Shown here: one piece after another, positions 53,736 through 62,871 of the stretch
Position numbering within the stretch: the first letter of the stretch is position 1
How the letters are laid out: the number at the start of each line of letters is the position of its first letter
Source: Ectocarpus siliculosus
Taxonomy: Eukaryota; Sar; Phaeophyceae; Ectocarpales; Ectocarpaceae
NCBI GenBank assembly: GCA_000310025.1
Contig: FN649728.1
Coordinates: 5,717,476-5,781,475, forward strand
DNA: 64,000 bases
Reading direction: 5' to 3'
Notes under the pieces: generated by a model
What the model saw: the letters and a program-made list of their open reading frames with translations, nothing else
What the model was told of the DNA's origin: nothing
Databases searched by the model: none
Translations under genes and position numbers: made by a program

Positions 53736-53934
53736 CTAGCCATAGCAACGAATTGTCTCCGTGGCCTCCTTGCGAGCGTCTTGGCCGCCCTTTTGGAGGT
53801 ACTGTTTTCGCCAGCGGGTGGTAGACATCCCGGGGTAGAGCACACGGTGGGCCGGCCGTGTGCAACATAGCATAACACGGGGTGCGGACGAGAGAGAGAG
53901 CGAGAGAGCGAGAGAGAGAGAGAGAGAGAGAGAC

Positions 53935-53975
<41 letters not shown>

Positions 53976-56900
53976 GAGAGAGACAGAGAGACGGACAGAG
54001 AAATACCGAAACAGAGAGCAAGAGAAAGAGAGAATAAGAGAGAGGCAGACAAAGCGAAAAAGAGCACGACACAAACGGCAACACGGGAGAGACAAAAGGG
54101 GCGGGGAGTGGGCGAGGGGCACGCGAAGGGATGTGTCAACGCCAAAGTAGCCAGGAGAAGCGGACACGACGCACAGAAAGCAAAGAAAGTACCAGAAGCA
54201 AGCGAGACGATTGCGGCTGGAGAACACGAGAGTGTGGGGATGGAACACCGGCGACGTCATTGGGTAGGCGAGCAAGCTGAACCGGAAGGCACACCTTCCG
54301 ATAACGAACTCGACATTTCTTCGAGGAAACACAACGATAAGGAGGGCGAAGTCGTGGATACTACAGGTAGGGTTGGATGGGCAGGAGTCCGTAGCCAGAC
54401 GGAGGGGCTCAGCGCCAATTTGACGAGACATGGTATCGAACAACGGCAAAAATAAAAATCGCAAGCGCGCGGGGGGGTGTACTCATAGTCGTGTATGCCG
54501 TAGTCGTTAGACCATTGACCTCGCATCCCTACACAGCCGGGACGGAGCACGCCGGGTTCTCACCGGACCAGGCTCTCACATCACCAAGCGCGAAGCGCCG
54601 TGAGGTATTCGGCGAGTCGCATGAAGGGTGAGCTGCATCCTGCTAAGGGTGTTCGGCATCTTGTGCTTACTTCCTTGCGTACGGATGACAGCTGCGTATG
54701 ACTTAATTTATTTTCTGGTGCCTTAACTTCCAGAGACAGTTGGAAGCACTGTGTAACTGCCTCGAGGATGCTTGACCATTTTAACACAACGTGGTGCGAT
54801 CATCCCCCTTGCGCGGAGTGAGGGTTCTCCACCCCGCACAACATGATCTACTCGACCACCATTATTGTTACTGCCCCCCCAAAAAAACAGAGGTAAAAAA
54901 ATAAAGCGGTAACCTGGTTGCCGAGTTCAAGAAGTGAATTGGCTTGTTTGACAACGTCGTTGCCAAGCGACGAAAACCCAACCCCGATGGCAAACACCGG
55001 GGGGTGGGGGGGCGCATATAGCTAGCTTGCCGCGTGCGGGTGTTCCACAACCCCCCCCTTCCCCCCCCCACAAAATGCACCAACCACCCAAGCAGTTTTC
55101 AGCGTCAAGCACAGCCGGTAGGGGCGGCTTGGGGTGTCACACCTGCTGATGCTCGTCCTCGGCGTCGTAAAACTCTCGGACCTCCTCGAGCTCTGTCGCA
55201 AGTTTCTTCAAGCGTCTTGCCGAGATTTCGTCCGCGAAGAACTTCTCCGCTACCGCTTTCTGAGAGCCGCCGGAAAAAGTAGAGAGAAAAAAATCAGACC
55301 AAATAAACAAGGAGACAGTGAGGGATGAAGAGGCCACGAAAGTGGTGGGGAGATTTGTATCGCGAGCCCAGCAGAGTGAACAAAACACGCGCGCGCCGGT
55401 GGCAGGGCAGTGAAATGCGTGCCAGAAAAAAGGGAAGTGAAACGTGTGCGTGTGAGCAAGGGGAGAAAAATGTGCAAAAGAGACAAAGGGAAGCGAAATA
55501 TGTGCATCAGAAAACGGGCAGTGAAATGTGTCTTAAGAGGAAAGGGCAGTGAAAACGTGCGGAGGGAGTGAAATGTATGCTGGAGAAATGCAAAGTGAAA
55601 CATGTTTGAAGAGCTGAACTTATAGGGAAAGGGCAGCGAAATATGTGCAAGAGAAAATGGACAGCGGATCACGTATTAAGAGAAATAGTATTTGTGAAAG
55701 TGTGCAAGCGCAACGGAGAGTGAAATCTAATGAGAAAAAGGGGGAAGTGGATATGTTCAAGAGAATAGAAAGTGAAATGCGGTGTGAAAGGGAAAAGGGG
55801 GGCGACATGTATGTAAAGGAGAAGGGCAGTGTCTATGTATAACAGGGAATATAGAAAAATGGCAGTGAAATATGTGCACGAACAGGGGCAGTGGATTCTG
55901 TAAGCGAAATACGGGCAATGAAACGCGTGCAAGAGAAAAAGGGCAGTGGAATACGCTCGAGAGAAAAAGGGGAACATCACCCAGCGAAGGAAAAAAACGT
56001 GTAAACTGATAGAAGCAGGCGGTGAACACGGTGGGTCAGGCAGCCAACGATATTCACAGCGCCGGTCGCGGGTGCCGTGGAAAAAACACGACGCAATGAT
56101 GTGAGATACCGCTCACCGCAGGGCCGGGTTCTGAAACATCGACTCCCGTATGCGACACAAGAAAACATCCCCCCTGGACCGATTTTCAAAGCTCGATTTC
56201 TCCACGACCGAGAGGACGCATAAACCCCGAGAGGTATCGACCAGAAGGCTTCAACGTCGCCGTTTTCGGCACCCCCACCATTATTGCTGTTGATAAATCG
56301 AGCCTTGAAAATCGGGCCAGGGGGTGTGTTATCTTGAGTCGAATACGGTACGCCACGACGAAGAGGGTGCCGCGACCAAGTGACACGAATTGTGAAAGCT
56401 CTTGTCGGCAATTCAAAATTACTTTGATACTCGTCTGCGGAGTTTTATGTAGAGCTTTGACTATCCGCCAAGGGCGGTGTCACGAAATCCCGGGGATAAT
56501 AGTCTTCAATTCACACATTCCTAATCGGGGCAGACAGGCCGGCGAACTTGGATGTGGCTCGTTTACGATCCCATTTGTTAAGAAACCCTTTTCGCCGGTC
56601 TCGGTGTGTTTTGAGCGTACCCAGCAGCGCGGGGACTGCCTACGAAACGAAAGAAAATGTACAATACTGCGAAAAAAGACCGGGCAGACCCTGACCCTAC
56701 TCCAACTTAGCCGGTTTTAGTTTTTATCCAGCATGTTTGCTTACTTACAAAAACCTGCGTAGACTAACGGGTATGTCTACGCGGCAAAGCAGACAGGCCG
56801 CCGGTGCTGCCGACTCTGCTAGGCGGCAAACGCAACCGACAACACCAACGAACTCCGTAGCACCGTCTCCCAACCCCATCAGCAGGAGCAATTGGACGCG

Positions 56901-59900
56901 ACCAAACCCACCCAGATGGGGTCGGGACAACATTATAGAGGCACCTCTGGCAAAGTAGGTAGCAAGGATTGGCCGTCGGTAATCTGTGGTGTGGCAACAA
57001 CGCTCCGTTCCCTCGAGGGTGCGTGGTCAATGGCCTAAAGTATGCAAACCGTTAACTAGAGTACGCCCCCCCAAGTTTGTTTCCCCGCACACCTGTTGCT
57101 CGTCGTGGAAGTACACCCCGGCCCTGTACTGGGTGCCCTTGTCGTTGCCCTGGCCGTTAACTTGGGTCGGGTCATGCCTGCCGAAGAAGATAGTCAGAAG
57201 GTCCGCGTACTTGGTCTCGGAAGGGTCGTACAGCACCTGTCGGCGGTAGGCGTGACAGCGGGCAGGCACCGACACGGGAAAGGCATCAAACCGCCATGCA
57301 GGGCGGAGAGGTACCAGTATTGCGTCATGATCGCATCCTTTCTCGCGTGTCCACATCATCGGAGGTCCGCAAATCACAGGCTTTTTTCTTCGGTCGCACC
57401 GGACGAACGGAAGAAATGGTGGTGATCTCAACGAGATATGTTTTCGCCGTGGATACCTTGAGGCATTCCCAGAATGAACCAAAAATGAGCAAAACACAAC
57501 TCGATGGGGGTGTTGCATACTCCGATGAAGAAGAAGATGAACAAATCTAATCAAATGTTTTCTGGGCATCAAAGATTTTTTCCCACAGAGACTGTGGGGG
57601 CTAGCATCTCCCTTGCGCAGGGGCCTCCTGGCAAAAATGCGGTCACCGTAGCTGTCTTAGTGAATTAGACAAAAAAAATGCGTAACCAAACCAAATAGAA
57701 TGCACGAGAACTGCCGCAGGAAAAAATAACAACATCATCGATCACGCAGACTACGACGACCACAAACAACAACAGCACACCTGAACGGCTTCCGTGTGTC
57801 CAGTCTTTCCCGAGCAGACCTCGCTGTAGGTCGGGTTCTTGACAACGCCCTGGGCGTAGCCCGCCTGCGAGCGCAAGAGCGAGCGCGGAGGACATGTTGT
57901 TGCCCACGCTAGTCGCAGCGCTGGTCGTATTTAGGAACGAACGATCGCTTGCACGGCACAGTTCGAGCGGTGGGAAGAACGGCAATCCCAAGCGCACTAG
58001 AAAACCTTCCCAAGGGCAGCACGTCTGTTCGACTGCAAAACCCAAACCACTCGGGAGCGGCTAGTGGCCACAGTCATGGACAACAATCACAGCAGCGGCC
58101 AAAGCTCAAGCAGCCTTATGTCGGCGTGCGTGAGAGGCTTGATCGTAGGAACCGACACGATCGACAAAAAACAAAAAAAAAGGGCTTGCGTTGAAATCAT
58201 CCTCGAGATCCCAGCGCGGCGTGTGTGTTGATGAATGAACCTCACGCGAACCAGGGCGAAAAAAAATGGTGGAGCTTCTTTGGACTGTCGAAACTATCCA
58301 GCCCCACCCACCCAACCCGGGCCCCTTGGCTCATTCGAACGCCATTTCGAAAGAAAACAGCGCGAGTTTCGGGCAAAAAAGGCCCAGAACGCGCGACGAG
58401 CAAGACAAGACATGATGGAGGCGCTTCATGTATGGAAGCATACCAAGACCGGAGGGGCGCATATCCACTTGGAAGTCTGTACCTTTATGGCACCACCCCC
58501 TTGGCTCGCTGGAAGACCAGTCAGTCCAAAAGAAAAAAGAACGGGCTTCGCAGGATAAATCGGTAAAGATTACGCGAGGAGGAACCAAGAATTGCCTTGG
58601 TGGGCACCACTCCCTTGGCTCGATGAAAAAGGCCAGTCAGTCCAAAAAAAAAGAAGAACGGGCTTCGTAAAAGAAGGTCACAGCACGCGACAAGCTTCAT
58701 ACAAGCGGGTTGCACATCCATTCGCACGCACTGCTGTACCTTGGTGGACACCACCCCCTTGGCTCGCTGGAAGGCCAGCTCGAGCCCCCAGAAACATCCT
58801 CCCGCGAAGGTAGCCGTCTTGAGGACCGACTCCGCCTTCGCCGCCTCCAGCACCTTAACGTCCATCACCTGCGGCGAGAAAAACAAAAAATCATTCGGAG
58901 GAGGGTGTAGGCCCGCAACATGCGAATGGACCCATGCCACGTCTAGGACCGCAGCGGTGGGGAACGTATGCATGCGACTCCGACCGGGTTTCCTCCAGCA
59001 CCATTGTGTCGACCACAGGTCACCGAGGACAGCGCGGTCGGTCGACCAATCAAAAGACGACATATCAATGCCCCGACCAACAGGCGACATAACAAGAACA
59101 CAACACAAACAAGTACGCGTAGCCCCTGTTAATAGTCGTGACTACGCCACGTGCCCGTAGCAAGGGATACACACAAGGGACATACAAAAGTTTGAGACGT
59201 TTAAGCTTTCGCCGTTCTGTCAACAACCTATATATCTTCGTTCTCGAGAGTGGCTTCGTGTCTGATTGTTGCAAAAAAAAACACCTTCGTTTTCCCGGCG
59301 GCCTTTTTACACCAAACGGGGTCACCCCTAAAAAAGATGGCAAAAACGCACACCACCCGTAGACGGACCTCTCATCTTTTTCTCAACCCACCGATATACC
59401 ACGCCACAGCAACTTCTTGAGAGTGACCTCGCGTGTATTAATGTTTGCGGAAAGCCTCCCCCCCCCCCGTGGACACCAATGCAGTCGCCCGTCTTTTGAG
59501 CGTTCGACGGAGGATTGGCTTTCTCGACCACGGACTTGCATACATGGGGATGCGAAGGTGTCCAAACCCCTACAGAGTGAGACACACAAGATAGCCGTTC
59601 GATCAAGGTCAAGCAACAGGTGTATCATCCCGAACCCTCCATGCAGTCCACTACACGCACTACAGTTAACCATCACACACCAGGGACGTGCCCGCCAGGT
59701 CCGGGTTCCAGTCAATCTTGAAGCTCTCGCCCGACATCTCTGTCACGGTGGCCTTTTGCCCCGTCCACAGCTGGAGCTGCGCACACACAGTTCGAACAAG
59801 TACATAAATTGAGAGGGCGGGCCGGGGCGGGGGGGTCACTCGTAGCCGCGCATGCCGCAGTCGTTTGTGTTTTCATGTAAACGCATGCCGTAGTGGGTAG

Positions 59901-62595
59901 GCCGTAGACATCACATCCCTGCAATGCCGGGACGGAGCGATATGTCCGGGTTTTCGCCAGCCCAGGCTACCGCTTCAAAAGGATCAACCCGAAAGCTGGT
60001 CATCCACCCTTGCCTTTGTTGTGCCAAAACCAACTCTTCACAGCAGCATGAACCGAAATTGTGAACAGCTGGGAAGAACTGCCACACACTATTTCAGCAA
60101 GCAATATTTCAATCGAGGAGAATGCACAAAATGCGGCAAAATGAGTTATCGCTTCAATAGTGGGGGGGTCTTTGTCGATGTAGGGCCGCAACACACGTCA
60201 CGATGCTGGAGTGCCCGACCGGAGCATGAAGTTGTCGGGGAGAAACGACTGCCATGACATAAAACGGTCGGATACCGGTTTTTGTCGTTTGGGTATCATA
60301 GACTGCCTAAGCCACGGCGGCTCGTTTCGATCTGCGGACCCCCCCCCCACCCCGCGCGCGCGCAAAGACCACAGGACACAACAGCGGCTAAAAGAAAATG
60401 ATAGGACGGAGGCGACCATAAAATACAAACTACAGCGGAACGCGCAAGAACGGCGCCGAAAAGAATGAAAATTTCGAACAGAAGCCCTCTTGGACCTCGG
60501 ACGGACTAACTCTCGGCACACGCTCGACACTTGATTGGAGTGGCCGCACCGGCGATACGGCAGACGGTTTGGACAAAAAAAACGCGCACACAAAACGTTC
60601 AGCGACAGCAGCAGCGACACTCTCGACGAAGCTGCCACAAAATTCCATGCGTGTGCACGCATGCTCGGCCGTGCCGCCGAAGACGGTTACGGTGGGGCCC
60701 AGACGAGACGGAGCAAAAAAACGAAAAAGCCGCCATATTTGGTACCAAAACCTCTCACCACGGTGCCGACGCTTATGTCTCCCGGGGCAGAGTCCATTCC
60801 GAGCGTCGCCGTCAGCTCAGGGTCGTCTGTAACGGAGGAGCACGGTCCGAAAAAATGGTACCCGGATCAGCGTGCGGCCGAGGTAATCCAAGAGGCGGGA
60901 GAGCGCACATCGTGGGGCGAACGAAGTGACCTCTTCCGGCGAAACACGCATAAGATGACGTGACGAAAAGGCAGTGCGGTGACCCGCTGGGGGACTGCGT
61001 GCAAACACAAGCAAGAGAGAGCACCGAGCTTACGGGGTCGTGCGCAGACGACACAGCCCCGCGCCAAAAACATTAGTGACGGGTTTGAGAGGGATGACGG
61101 CACACCAAAACGAAAAAAACACAAACGCGGCCACGGCGAAAGCGCTTCCACATACAGCAGTACCGTGCAACCAAAAAAACACCATCACCCAGTAAAGGGG
61201 CTACGCAGAATGCAAGGGCTTTGGCCCCGGCGTCGAGAAACGGCATATACACCGAAGGTTGGGTAAGATACCATACCCCGCCGGACCGATTTTTCGAAGC
61301 TCGGATACTCCGCGACGAAGATGATGCCAAAATCAGGCGTTTTCGGAAAGCTCTCGACAAGGAGGTTTCAACGCAGCCACCATCGGCACCGTCGTTAGAG
61401 CTTGACCAACCGAGCATATGAGAAATCGGTTCACGGGGGTGTTCTATCTTACGTCATGCAGGCTACGGCATAGGTACACCTTTCGGCCGACCCGGGTCTC
61501 ACATTCCCCGAAGGCGTCTTTCGGCGGGACCGTCACTTCCTTTTCCTCCCCGGGCTCCATCTTCAGGACGGCGTTGTGCAAGAACGGGGCGAAGCCTCCC
61601 CCGCCCACCACAAGCTTCACTCTCCCCTGGTCAAGCGGTCCAGACAGAGGGTCACAGCGAGTGCGGGTGGGCGTGTCTCCGAGCCGAGACCATGGGCGCA
61701 GACGCCGCCGCGGGCCACCGGCGCTGGGTTGCAGCTAGCGCTCGGGGGAGGGAGAAGCTAGCCGAACGGGGTAGAAACATCATCACTCCCACGAGGGAGA
61801 GTCACAAGATTGCAGGAAGCACAGCGGTGACAAAAAACAAAAAACAGTGTTGACATTGACGCGCCGACGCGTACGGCAACGCACGTCAGCGATCGAATCC
61901 ACCACCACTAAGACTGCGAAAAAACATAGAAACTCGTGCATCTGTTGGGAGCACAACCATGAGCGCGCTGTGTCTACTACTACATCAACACGACGCCGAA
62001 ACTAGTGCTCAAACCGTTTCCCCAAGGCCAGTCATGTTCCTTCCCGAGCAGGAGACTTCAACCCAAACTTGACGGGACCAACAAATAACCAAGTGATCCC
62101 GAATTAGTGATAAGGTTGTTCCGCTTCTTGCATGCCCATGTAATGTGTGGACTAGAGCGAGAATGTTGGCCACCATGCAATTGAGGTTCGTTATCAAGAG
62201 ATTGCCGTTCTCAGCCTCAAAACTCGCAACTCTACCGGTCAAAGCGGGCTTCGAACGGCGAACCACCCCCCTGGCCAAGCAGGAGAGCATGACCACAAAC
62301 TGTAACAACTGTTCCCGAATACCGGGTCAACCCGAGCCTCGCAGGACGGACCATCCTCGTTGCCAAGCAAGAGGAGTACGGGCCAACCACAAGAGAACCA
62401 CAACCAACGACTGCTGTACCCGCTGACCTGGTCAAACCGTGTCTCGAAGGGCGAGCCATCCTCCGTTCTCAGCGAGTACTCCACCCCGGCCACGTCCCCG
62501 ACTGCCACCATCGACAGGCACCTGCGCCTCTCCTTCGTTCCCCACCCGGACGCTTGGAAAACACAGCCCGGACCACCCTCCCACCGCGGGTTCAT
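53736..62595 (-). CDS. Fusion protein: SlyD-like FKBP peptidyl-prolyl isomerase + peptide-methionine (S)-S-oxide reductase MsrA
   Basis: Nine exons in sense order: 62595-62428, 61626-61503, 60826-60759, 59776-59681, 58868-58740, 57864-57781, 57236-57093, 55259-55143, 53801-53736. Every phase matches, about 331 residues. FKBP part: [80 protein letters not shown] and the closing strand [13 protein letters not shown]. Order and spacing match bacterial SlyD (AYGQYDENL, GNHMLAGQNLKFNVEVV), including the insert-in-flap domain. The MsrA part follows directly: TFAGGCFWG with the catalytic Cys, [54 protein letters not shown] and a plant-like C-terminal IRCYG. The exon at 58868-58740 holds the FKBP end and the MsrA active site, so the domains are physically joined. 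Probable job: refold and repair oxidised proteins. The start is uncertain: ATG 62595, ATG 62511, or an upstream exon at 63311-63059. Introns hold repeats and two MITE-like elements. Confidence 0.88.
53888..54050. repeat. (AG)n-rich microsatellite
   Basis: Long AG/ACAG tract in the last intron of the fusion gene. It creates the long Leu/Ser frames on the minus strand. Confidence 0.9.
54478..54572 (-). repeat. Dispersed repeat family, copy 2
   Basis: Inverted relative to copy 1: ACTCATAGTCGTGTATGCCG, then TTAGACCATTGACCTCGCAT, CCCTAC and GGGACGGAGC. In the last intron of the fusion gene. Confidence 0.65.
55410..55985. repeat. Degenerate ~28-bp minisatellite
   Basis: About 20 imperfect copies of a unit close to GGGCAGTGAAATATGTGCAA + GAGAAAA in the last intron of the fusion gene (between exons ending 55143 and starting 53801, extending past exon 8 into the intron above 55259). 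Purines dominate the plus strand, so minus-strand frames are long Phe/His/Ser-rich artefacts. Confidence 0.75.
56158..56336. mobile_element. MITE-like inverted-repeat element, copy 2
   Basis: Left end AAGAAAACATCCCCCCTGG, ACCGATTTTCAAAGCTCGAT; right end reads in reverse complement AAGATAACACACCCCCTGG, CCCGATTTTCAAGGCTCGAT. Length ~180 bp, no coding capacity. It lies in the fusion gene intron between exons 57093 and 55259. Target duplication not identified. Confidence 0.7.
58315..58781 (-). repeat. Tandem partial copies of the MsrA exon tail within the following intron
   Basis: The end of the exon coding [11 protein letters not shown] (58741-58781) is repeated in the downstream intron at about 58595-58636 and 58482-58520, with a short remnant near 58315-58336. 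Each has the core CCACTCCCTTGGCTCG / CCACCCCCTTGGCTCG on the plus strand. The two intronic copies also share a GTCAGTCCAAAA...ACGGGCTTCG trailer. They still read RAKGV(V/P) but lack the rest of the exon. Confidence 0.85.
59830..59965 (-). repeat. Dispersed repeat family, copy 3
   Basis: Longer variant: GTCACTCGTAGCCGCGCATG, GCCGTAGTGGGTAGGCCGTA, CATCACATCCCTGCAATGCC, GGGACGGAGCGATATG and GGTTTTCGCC. Same order as copy 2. In a fusion-gene intron just 5' (transcript sense) of the exon at 59776-59681. Confidence 0.6.
61270..61440. mobile_element. MITE-like inverted-repeat element, copy 3
   Basis: Left end GTAAGATACCATACCCCGCC then GGACCGATTTTTCGAAGCTC; right end in reverse complement GTAAGATAGAACACCCCCGT then GAACCGATTTCTC. 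Lies ~60 bp downstream of the exon 61626-61503 of the fusion gene, inside its intron. More diverged than copy 2. Confidence 0.65.
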
Positions 62596-62871
62596 GCTCG
62601 CTCCACCTGGGTACAAGTTACAACGCCGATGGATCAGCAAGATGGACCATGGGTTGTTGGCGACCCTTGGGCATGCGCGGTTATGTACCGACGGGTCCCT
62701 TGAAACACAGCAGCTTTCGTAGTTGATGGTATCTCCGTCCTGCTTGTGACTGGTGTAGACGATGGGCTGGCCGCACATCGCGAGCAGGCTCGGGCGGGCC
62801 CCCGGAGCGCGACGCAACCATGTATTCATGCAGGCCCGTTTGCTGTCTTCCTAAAACAACAAGTAACATCG

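Follow-up and report, generated by a model that had tools for sequence, protein, structure and literature searches.

The locus considered here raises a simple question: what does a domain of the FKBP family do when it is encoded in one frame with a methionine sulfoxide reductase? It lies on the minus strand of a 64,000-nucleotide stretch of the genome of the brown alga Ectocarpus siliculosus (contig FN649728.1, positions 5,717,476 to 5,781,475; hereafter the window), where the original prediction, made from the sequence letters, had placed one gene in which a SlyD-like FKBP, including its insert-in-flap (IF) segment, is joined to a downstream MsrA, the enzyme which reduces methionine-S-sulfoxide. 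The Pfam matches, the alignments and the fused homologues described below agree with this architecture. Our preferred reading, to which we give a probability of roughly 0.55, is that the gene encodes a plastid MsrA with a built-in client-binding module of the SlyD type, in which prolyl isomerisation has become weak or has been lost in the clade of the window's protein.

Msr enzymes work best on unfolded proteins, and how they find their clients in vivo is a question which a tethered chaperone-MsrA would address directly. Plastids are strong producers of reactive oxygen, and a large part of the photosynthesis in the sea is carried out by diatoms and brown algae. The family itself allows a natural comparison between green-type fusions with an intact isomerase pocket and ochrophyte-type fusions, in which the pocket is changed.

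Gene structure and probable plastid targeting

The exon model was derived from genomic sequence, and its borders and phases were verified on the minus strand of the window. The nine exons originally proposed are all present, with GT/AG borders and agreeing phases, and their spliced product is a single frame of 331 amino acids (aa), closed by one stop at its end. Exon 58868-58740 had been said to encode the final FKBP strand together with the active site of MsrA (GGCFWG), as the translation bears out, and the fusion junction lies inside this exon. In the 331-aa frame, Pfam places FKBP_C (PF00254) at residues 31-99 (E 5.8e-10, 39.8 bits, cut-off 21.1) and PMSR (PF01625) at residues 170-316 (E 1.3e-57, 194.8 bits, cut-off 23.7), and single annotated proteins of Pylaiella (P0001) and Scytosiphon (P0002) are 85-86% identical to it over 93% of the query. 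It is practically certain that the two halves form a single fused gene.

The gene start, originally placed at 62595, had to be moved. Homologues from Pylaiella (P0001) and Hapterophycus (P0034, partial) carry N-terminal extensions, and a tblastn search of 9.5 kb of contig C3 past the window with the Pylaiella N-terminus matched an upstream exon at window-equivalent positions 64327-64198 (E 6e-6). The ATG at 62595 is internal to an exon that spans from 62606, and the full ten-exon gene gives a precursor of 378 aa, in a single frame with one terminal stop. The features of the gene are:

Exon 1 of 10: window-equivalent 64327-64198, outside the window, minus strand; tblastn match on contig C3
Exon 2 (exon 1 in the original prediction): 62428..62606, minus strand; transit-peptide-like end and FKBP start, with the internal ATG at 62595; acceptor ACCCAG, donor GTCAGC, continuing exon 1 in phase 1
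Exon 3: 61503..61626, minus strand; FKBP core
Exon 4: 60759..60826, minus strand; beginning of the IF segment
Exon 5: 59681..59776, minus strand; remaining IF segment, with the D-x-N-x-x-x-A-G signature as DWNPDLAG
Exon 6: 58740..58868, minus strand; final FKBP strand, then a short junction and the active site of MsrA
MsrA catalytic motif GCFWG: 58785..58799, minus strand; predicted catalytic Cys177 (331-aa frame), codon 58796-58794
Exon 7: 57781..57864, minus strand; MsrA, with EVCSGKTGH (Cys212)
Exon 8: 57093..57236, minus strand; MsrA
Exon 9: 55143..55259, minus strand; MsrA
Exon 10: 53736..53801, minus strand; MsrA C-terminal tail and stop, with Cys329 as the sole tail Cys

The N-terminus of the extended protein reads MGWKQTAAVGSSIAALVLARRAASFVRAP, where a hydrophobic stretch precedes AASF. 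A bipartite plastid signal with an ASAFAP motif is typical of red-plastid algae; the first exon contributes a stretch resembling a signal peptide together with a motif close to ASAFAP, and the fused protein is therefore probably targeted to the plastid. The same tendency is seen in 69 fused relatives which have the window's type of C-terminal tail (see below), begin with Met and carry 25 or more residues ahead of the FKBP core: [AS]F occurs within residues 9-60 in 44 of the 69 (shuffled extensions, mean 24.4 and maximum 34 in 200 trials), and a looser hydrophobic-plus-aromatic rule holds for 50 (shuffled 35.5, maximum 44).

Distribution of the fusion

A search of a protein collection returned 5067 proteins at E <= 0.001, and the best 120 of the 5067 were analysed. 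Among these, 118 contain the motif G[CUR]FW, preceded in 113 of the 118 by at least 120 residues. When 16 relatives and the window's protein were used to build a profile of the FKBP half, it matched 103 of 104 non-seed proteins at E < 1e-10 (these E values relate to a small set), the exception being P0012. As a contrast, the profile matched only one of 112 N-terminal parts of MsrA proteins found with the MsrA half alone (56 of these parts have at least 100 residues), and this single match, P0268, is a 184-aa fused protein, probably truncated.

The closest named relatives of the window's protein are brown algae (Pylaiella littoralis and Scytosiphon promiscuus among the carriers). The protein search finds the same fusion in other stramenopiles, namely Tribonema minus (a xanthophyte), Heterosigma akashiwo (a raphidophyte), Rhizochromulina marina (a dictyochophyte), the pelagophytes Chrysophaeum taylorii and Pelagophyceae sp. 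CCMP2097, and the diatoms Leptocylindrus danicus and Thalassionema frauenfeldii; it extends to the cryptophyte Geminigera cryophila and to the green algae Coccomyxa and Trebouxia. At least 14 rows, among the matches listed, are labelled as transcriptome-derived (MMETSP or the like), with both halves present. The FKBP partner of MsrA, which was unfamiliar in the original prediction, is real, but it belongs to a conserved algal family and is not an oddity.

Some records are imperfect: P0034 is partial and contains FKBP only, and P0006 is without the first part of the FKBP half. The brown-alga-like gene model P0058, 79% identical to the window's protein over 51%, reads GRFW where the catalytic GCFW would be and lacks a portion of the FKBP half; it would be either a mis-model or a decayed copy.

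Both Pfam labels are found on only 36 of the best 120 homologues, and the names given in databases conflict: the Tribonema protein is a "peptidylprolyl isomerase" in UniRef and a "peptide methionine sulfoxide reductase" at NCBI, and the Coccomyxa record is named "probable peptide methionine sulfoxide reductase at C-terminar half". This sparse and conflicting labelling may explain why the fusion went unnoticed. Text searches of open PubMed Central (PMC) articles, which leave closed literature aside, found no paper naming an FKBP-MsrA fusion, and it is unmentioned in the passages considered from PMC7539508, PMC5599023, PMC8256493, PMC5034536, PMC6162775 and PMC11013033. The architecture is thus present in databases and apparently undescribed in the open papers searched.

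The FKBP half

The FKBP halves of 124 fused proteins (the window's included) were aligned with 10 unfused prokaryotic-type relatives, after dropping two further fused proteins with a profile coverage below 90 residues. According to the C-terminal tail, the fused set was split into 14 two-cysteine proteins (plant-MsrA-like, or green-type) and 110 of the window's type. The rows had been picked by similarity to the window's and the Coccomyxa proteins, the two-cysteine group mostly via the green query (6 of the 14 came from the first search). Pocket positions are named after the FKBP12 part of the chimera 5i7q, aligned to the window's protein.

The IF signature is almost invariant in the 110 window-type proteins (G118 in 109, G126 in 110, D142 in 109, N144 in 110, A148 in 107 and G149 in 110). 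The segment aligns with 1ix5 and with the FKBP12-IF chimera, and the predicted model of an orthologue matches the FKBP fold.

The isomerase pocket is different. At the Y26, D37, I56, Y82 and F99 positions, the window's protein has Y, E, A, F and M, which is not the canonical set. Among the window-type proteins, Y26 is mostly replaced or retained as Tyr (43), Trp (26) or Leu (15), D37 as Pro (36), Asp (27) or Glu (14), I56 as Leu (55), Phe (18) or Ile (16), Y82 as Phe (60) or Tyr (20), and F99 as Leu (50), Phe (16) or Met (15); additionally, 84 of the 110 have Leu at the W59 position and 84 have His at the E60 position. The pocket of the two-cysteine type is canonical (Tyr26 in 13 with one gap, Asp37 in 14, Ile56 in 11 and Val in 3, Tyr82 in 14, Phe99 in 14), and the prokaryotic relatives have Tyr26, Asp37, Ile56, Tyr82 and Phe99 in 10 out of 10 each.

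In Thermus SlyD, as reported in the excerpts of PMC5034536, the substitutions most damaging to catalysis are F128A (equivalent to F99) and Y63A (equivalent to Y82), with Y63F keeping 76% of the activity. Since this SlyD also has a Leu (L40, same excerpts), which we infer to correspond to the W59 position, Leu at that position is meaningless alone. The changed pocket as a whole suggests that selection on the window's type has ceased to maintain prolyl isomerisation and, judging from these residues, we slightly favour a peptidyl-prolyl isomerase activity which is much reduced.

The MsrA half

The MsrA half scores 187.8 bits with the NCBIfam model TIGR00401 (cut-off 108.1). By its motif, Cys177 is the predicted catalytic residue, and Cys212 and Cys329, both present in the window's protein, are candidate resolving or recycling residues. 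The C-terminal tail has one Cys in the window's type, versus two in the green-type fusions and in poplar MsrA, and the C-terminus RCYG is found in 106 of 111 window-type database proteins.

Proposed function and alternatives

In the mechanism which we propose, a nuclear brown-alga gene would give one plastid-targeted protein, formed by a SlyD-type FKBP with an IF chaperone segment, a short rigid junction and a plant-type MsrA. The IF segment would bind unfolded, oxidised plastid proteins and present their methionine-S-sulfoxide to the adjoining MsrA site (Cys177), which thioredoxin would re-reduce via Cys212 and/or Cys329; in its simplest use, an IF module beside MsrA would raise the local concentration of unfolded oxidised clients. 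Prolyl isomerisation would be weak or lost in the window's clade. Yeast Msrs are reported to prefer unfolded proteins (PMC6162775, citing Tarrago 2012), and IF domains to bind unfolded chains and, when grafted into FKBP12, to raise its folding activity greatly (PMC11013033). We put at about even odds that the IF segment serves as client-binding module for MsrA, and the conservation pattern mildly favours a client which is held while being reduced. Of the bifunctional enzyme originally proposed, the pair of domains stands, but an active prolyl isomerase is doubtful in this clade, where the pocket residues are changed.

Several points weigh against the proposal. The rows were chosen by similarity, so that the residue counts are contrasts and not population frequencies. 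The exchange of Y82 for Phe is by itself nearly harmless in SlyD, and some isomerase activity could therefore remain. The IF residues by which SlyD contacts its clients are themselves poorly conserved (excerpts of PMC5034536), and those IF residues which are invariant may serve folding instead of client binding. The score with the SlyD equivalog of NCBIfam (NF008008) is 24.5 of 174 bits, and with the SlpA-type model (NF011676) 41 of 125 bits; since both are below the cut-offs, we call this half SlyD-like and not SlyD. Finally, having one tail Cys and not two makes the recycling route uncertain.

The proposal has to be weighed against other explanations. Both halves could be fully active enzymes, as originally proposed, the FKBP half isomerising prolines in concert with MsrA so that refolding is combined with repair; this would fit the retained FKBP fold and IF segment, the 76% activity of the Y63F SlyD and, for the 14 green-type fusions, the canonical pocket; we find this unlikely, since only 16 of the 110 window-type proteins have Phe at F99 and only 16 have Ile at I56, with Met and Ala in the window's protein. 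We consider improbable that the FKBP half is a remnant scaffold (for stability, dimerisation or partner docking), neither isomerase nor client-binding. The changed pocket would agree with it, the conserved Gly, Asp, Asn and Ala of the IF segment could be purely structural, and algae keep a separate, unfused plastid-type MsrA (e.g. P0195, an Ectocarpus), so that clients of its own would not be required for the fused form. Nevertheless, the FKBP half is kept at near-constant spacing to the MsrA motif across ochrophytes, a cryptophyte and green algae, and new positions have become common in it (84 of 110 have His at the E60 position), a sign that some property of it is under selection. The existence of two adjacent genes or of a gene-model artefact, with no fused protein, is extremely improbable: the model in the source alga was built from genomic DNA only, P0058 is broken across the region with GRFW and P0034 and P0006 are partial, but there is no stop or start between the two domains of exon 58868-58740, full-length fused proteins occur in Pylaiella, Scytosiphon, Tribonema and others, and both halves are present in 14 transcriptome-derived rows. 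A chance artefact is ruled out by the open spliced frame, the Pfam E values and the fused homologues.

Comparison with known systems

The algal protein shares with SlyD (Thermus 3cgm/3luo; archaeal FKBP 1ix5) the FKBP fold, the position of the IF segment and the D-x-N-x-x-x-A-G signature, but it is fused to MsrA, its IF segment is shorter and, in the window's type, its pocket is changed. SlyD bears a His-rich metal-binding tail, which the algal fusion does not have. Unlike plant-type MsrA (poplar 2j89), the fusion adds an N-terminal FKBP-IF half and has one tail Cys instead of two. As in the MsrA/MsrB fusions (PilB, 3e0m, 7e43) and MsrAB proteins, MsrA is covalently joined to a helper domain; however, the algal partner is an FKBP-IF that precedes MsrA, and the Pfam scan gave no MsrB match. 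Another algal MsrA fusion, with a different partner, is the GST-MSRA selenoprotein of Emiliania huxleyi (PMC7539508), in whose text FKBP occurs 0 times. The short-IF prokaryotic FKBPs have the same short IF segment (P0127-P0134 are 54-59% identical to the Coccomyxa FKBP half), but they have a canonical pocket and no neighbouring MsrA open reading frame (best 80 of 560 loci).

Origin of the fusion

Of the 124 proteins with a signature (127 were examined, 3 without it), 115 have 25-28 residues between the end of the IF signature and GCFW. The quick trees included, for MsrA, at most 61 of the 121 fused rows and 36 of the 105 unfused database rows, together with pieces from poplar and E. coli; for FKBP, 28 fused rows were set against 31 prokaryotic ones. 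Fused proteins cluster strongly on these trees, with 6 label changes for fused MsrA (shuffled mean 29.8) and 2 for fused FKBP (19.9), but resolution is poor. Constraining the fused rows to one clade gave a slightly better likelihood, with approximately unbiased test p values of 0.535 (MsrA) and 0.649 (FKBP). One fusion event is allowed and is the simplest reading, although constrained trees are no proof of a single origin; several events are unneeded, the one-clade trees being at least as likely.

Among unfused FKBPs, the nearest relatives are short-IF proteins from Chloroflexota, Actinomycetota and other groups. A bacterial origin of the fusion itself was rejected, given that 0 of the best 80 of 560 prokaryotic short-IF FKBP loci have an MsrA open reading frame within flanks of up to 3 kb. 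A viral origin was likewise discarded (none of 25 viral MsrA loci shows an FKBP match within 2 kb of flank), as was a second genomic copy of the FKBP half: among the best candidates scored, matches to this half are confined to C3, and the further MsrA exons, located on C16, C9 and C2, resemble just the MsrA half. The lipoprotein-like bacterial FKBPs P0127-P0134 show the same short IF segment as the algal fusions, and such proteins are a possible donor type.

We would tentatively, and at less than even odds, suggest a more specific history: a SlyD of bacterial type would have joined MsrA in a single event in red-plastid algae, shed most of its prolyl-isomerase pocket and turned into a dedicated client-capture module of a plastid enzyme for methionine-sulfoxide repair, in which the newly fixed Leu-His motif (in place of Trp/Phe-Glu/Asp) would have a non-isomerase role, possibly the recognition of oxidised clients.

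Ochrophytes also have unfused MsrA proteins with an apparent signal or transit extension (P0195, P0240, P0247, P0225, P0250), and on the quick tree the MsrA domain of this unfused form falls into a group of its own, comprising 29 rows (Shimodaira-Hasegawa-like approximate likelihood ratio test 99).

Introns and repeats

An Rfam scan of the window gave 0 matches. Decayed tandem copies of the 3' tail of the upstream exon are found in the introns after exons 58868-58740 (58322-58772) and 62606-62428 (~62220-62430), with local scores of 30 and 21 against shuffle maxima of 15 and 16, respectively; in the other seven of the nine introns, the score is at or below the shuffle maximum. In the first of these introns, the element GAGCCAAGGG is repeated at 58765, 58621, 58507 and 58332. 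This looks like intron growth via tandem duplication across the splice donor. Additionally, the 1833-base intron 8 contains, at 55395-55967, diverged minisatellite-like repeats with units of ~28 to 58 bases (GGGCAGTGAAATATGTGC), and the last intron has a GA/CT simple repeat of ~155 bases at 53890-54044.
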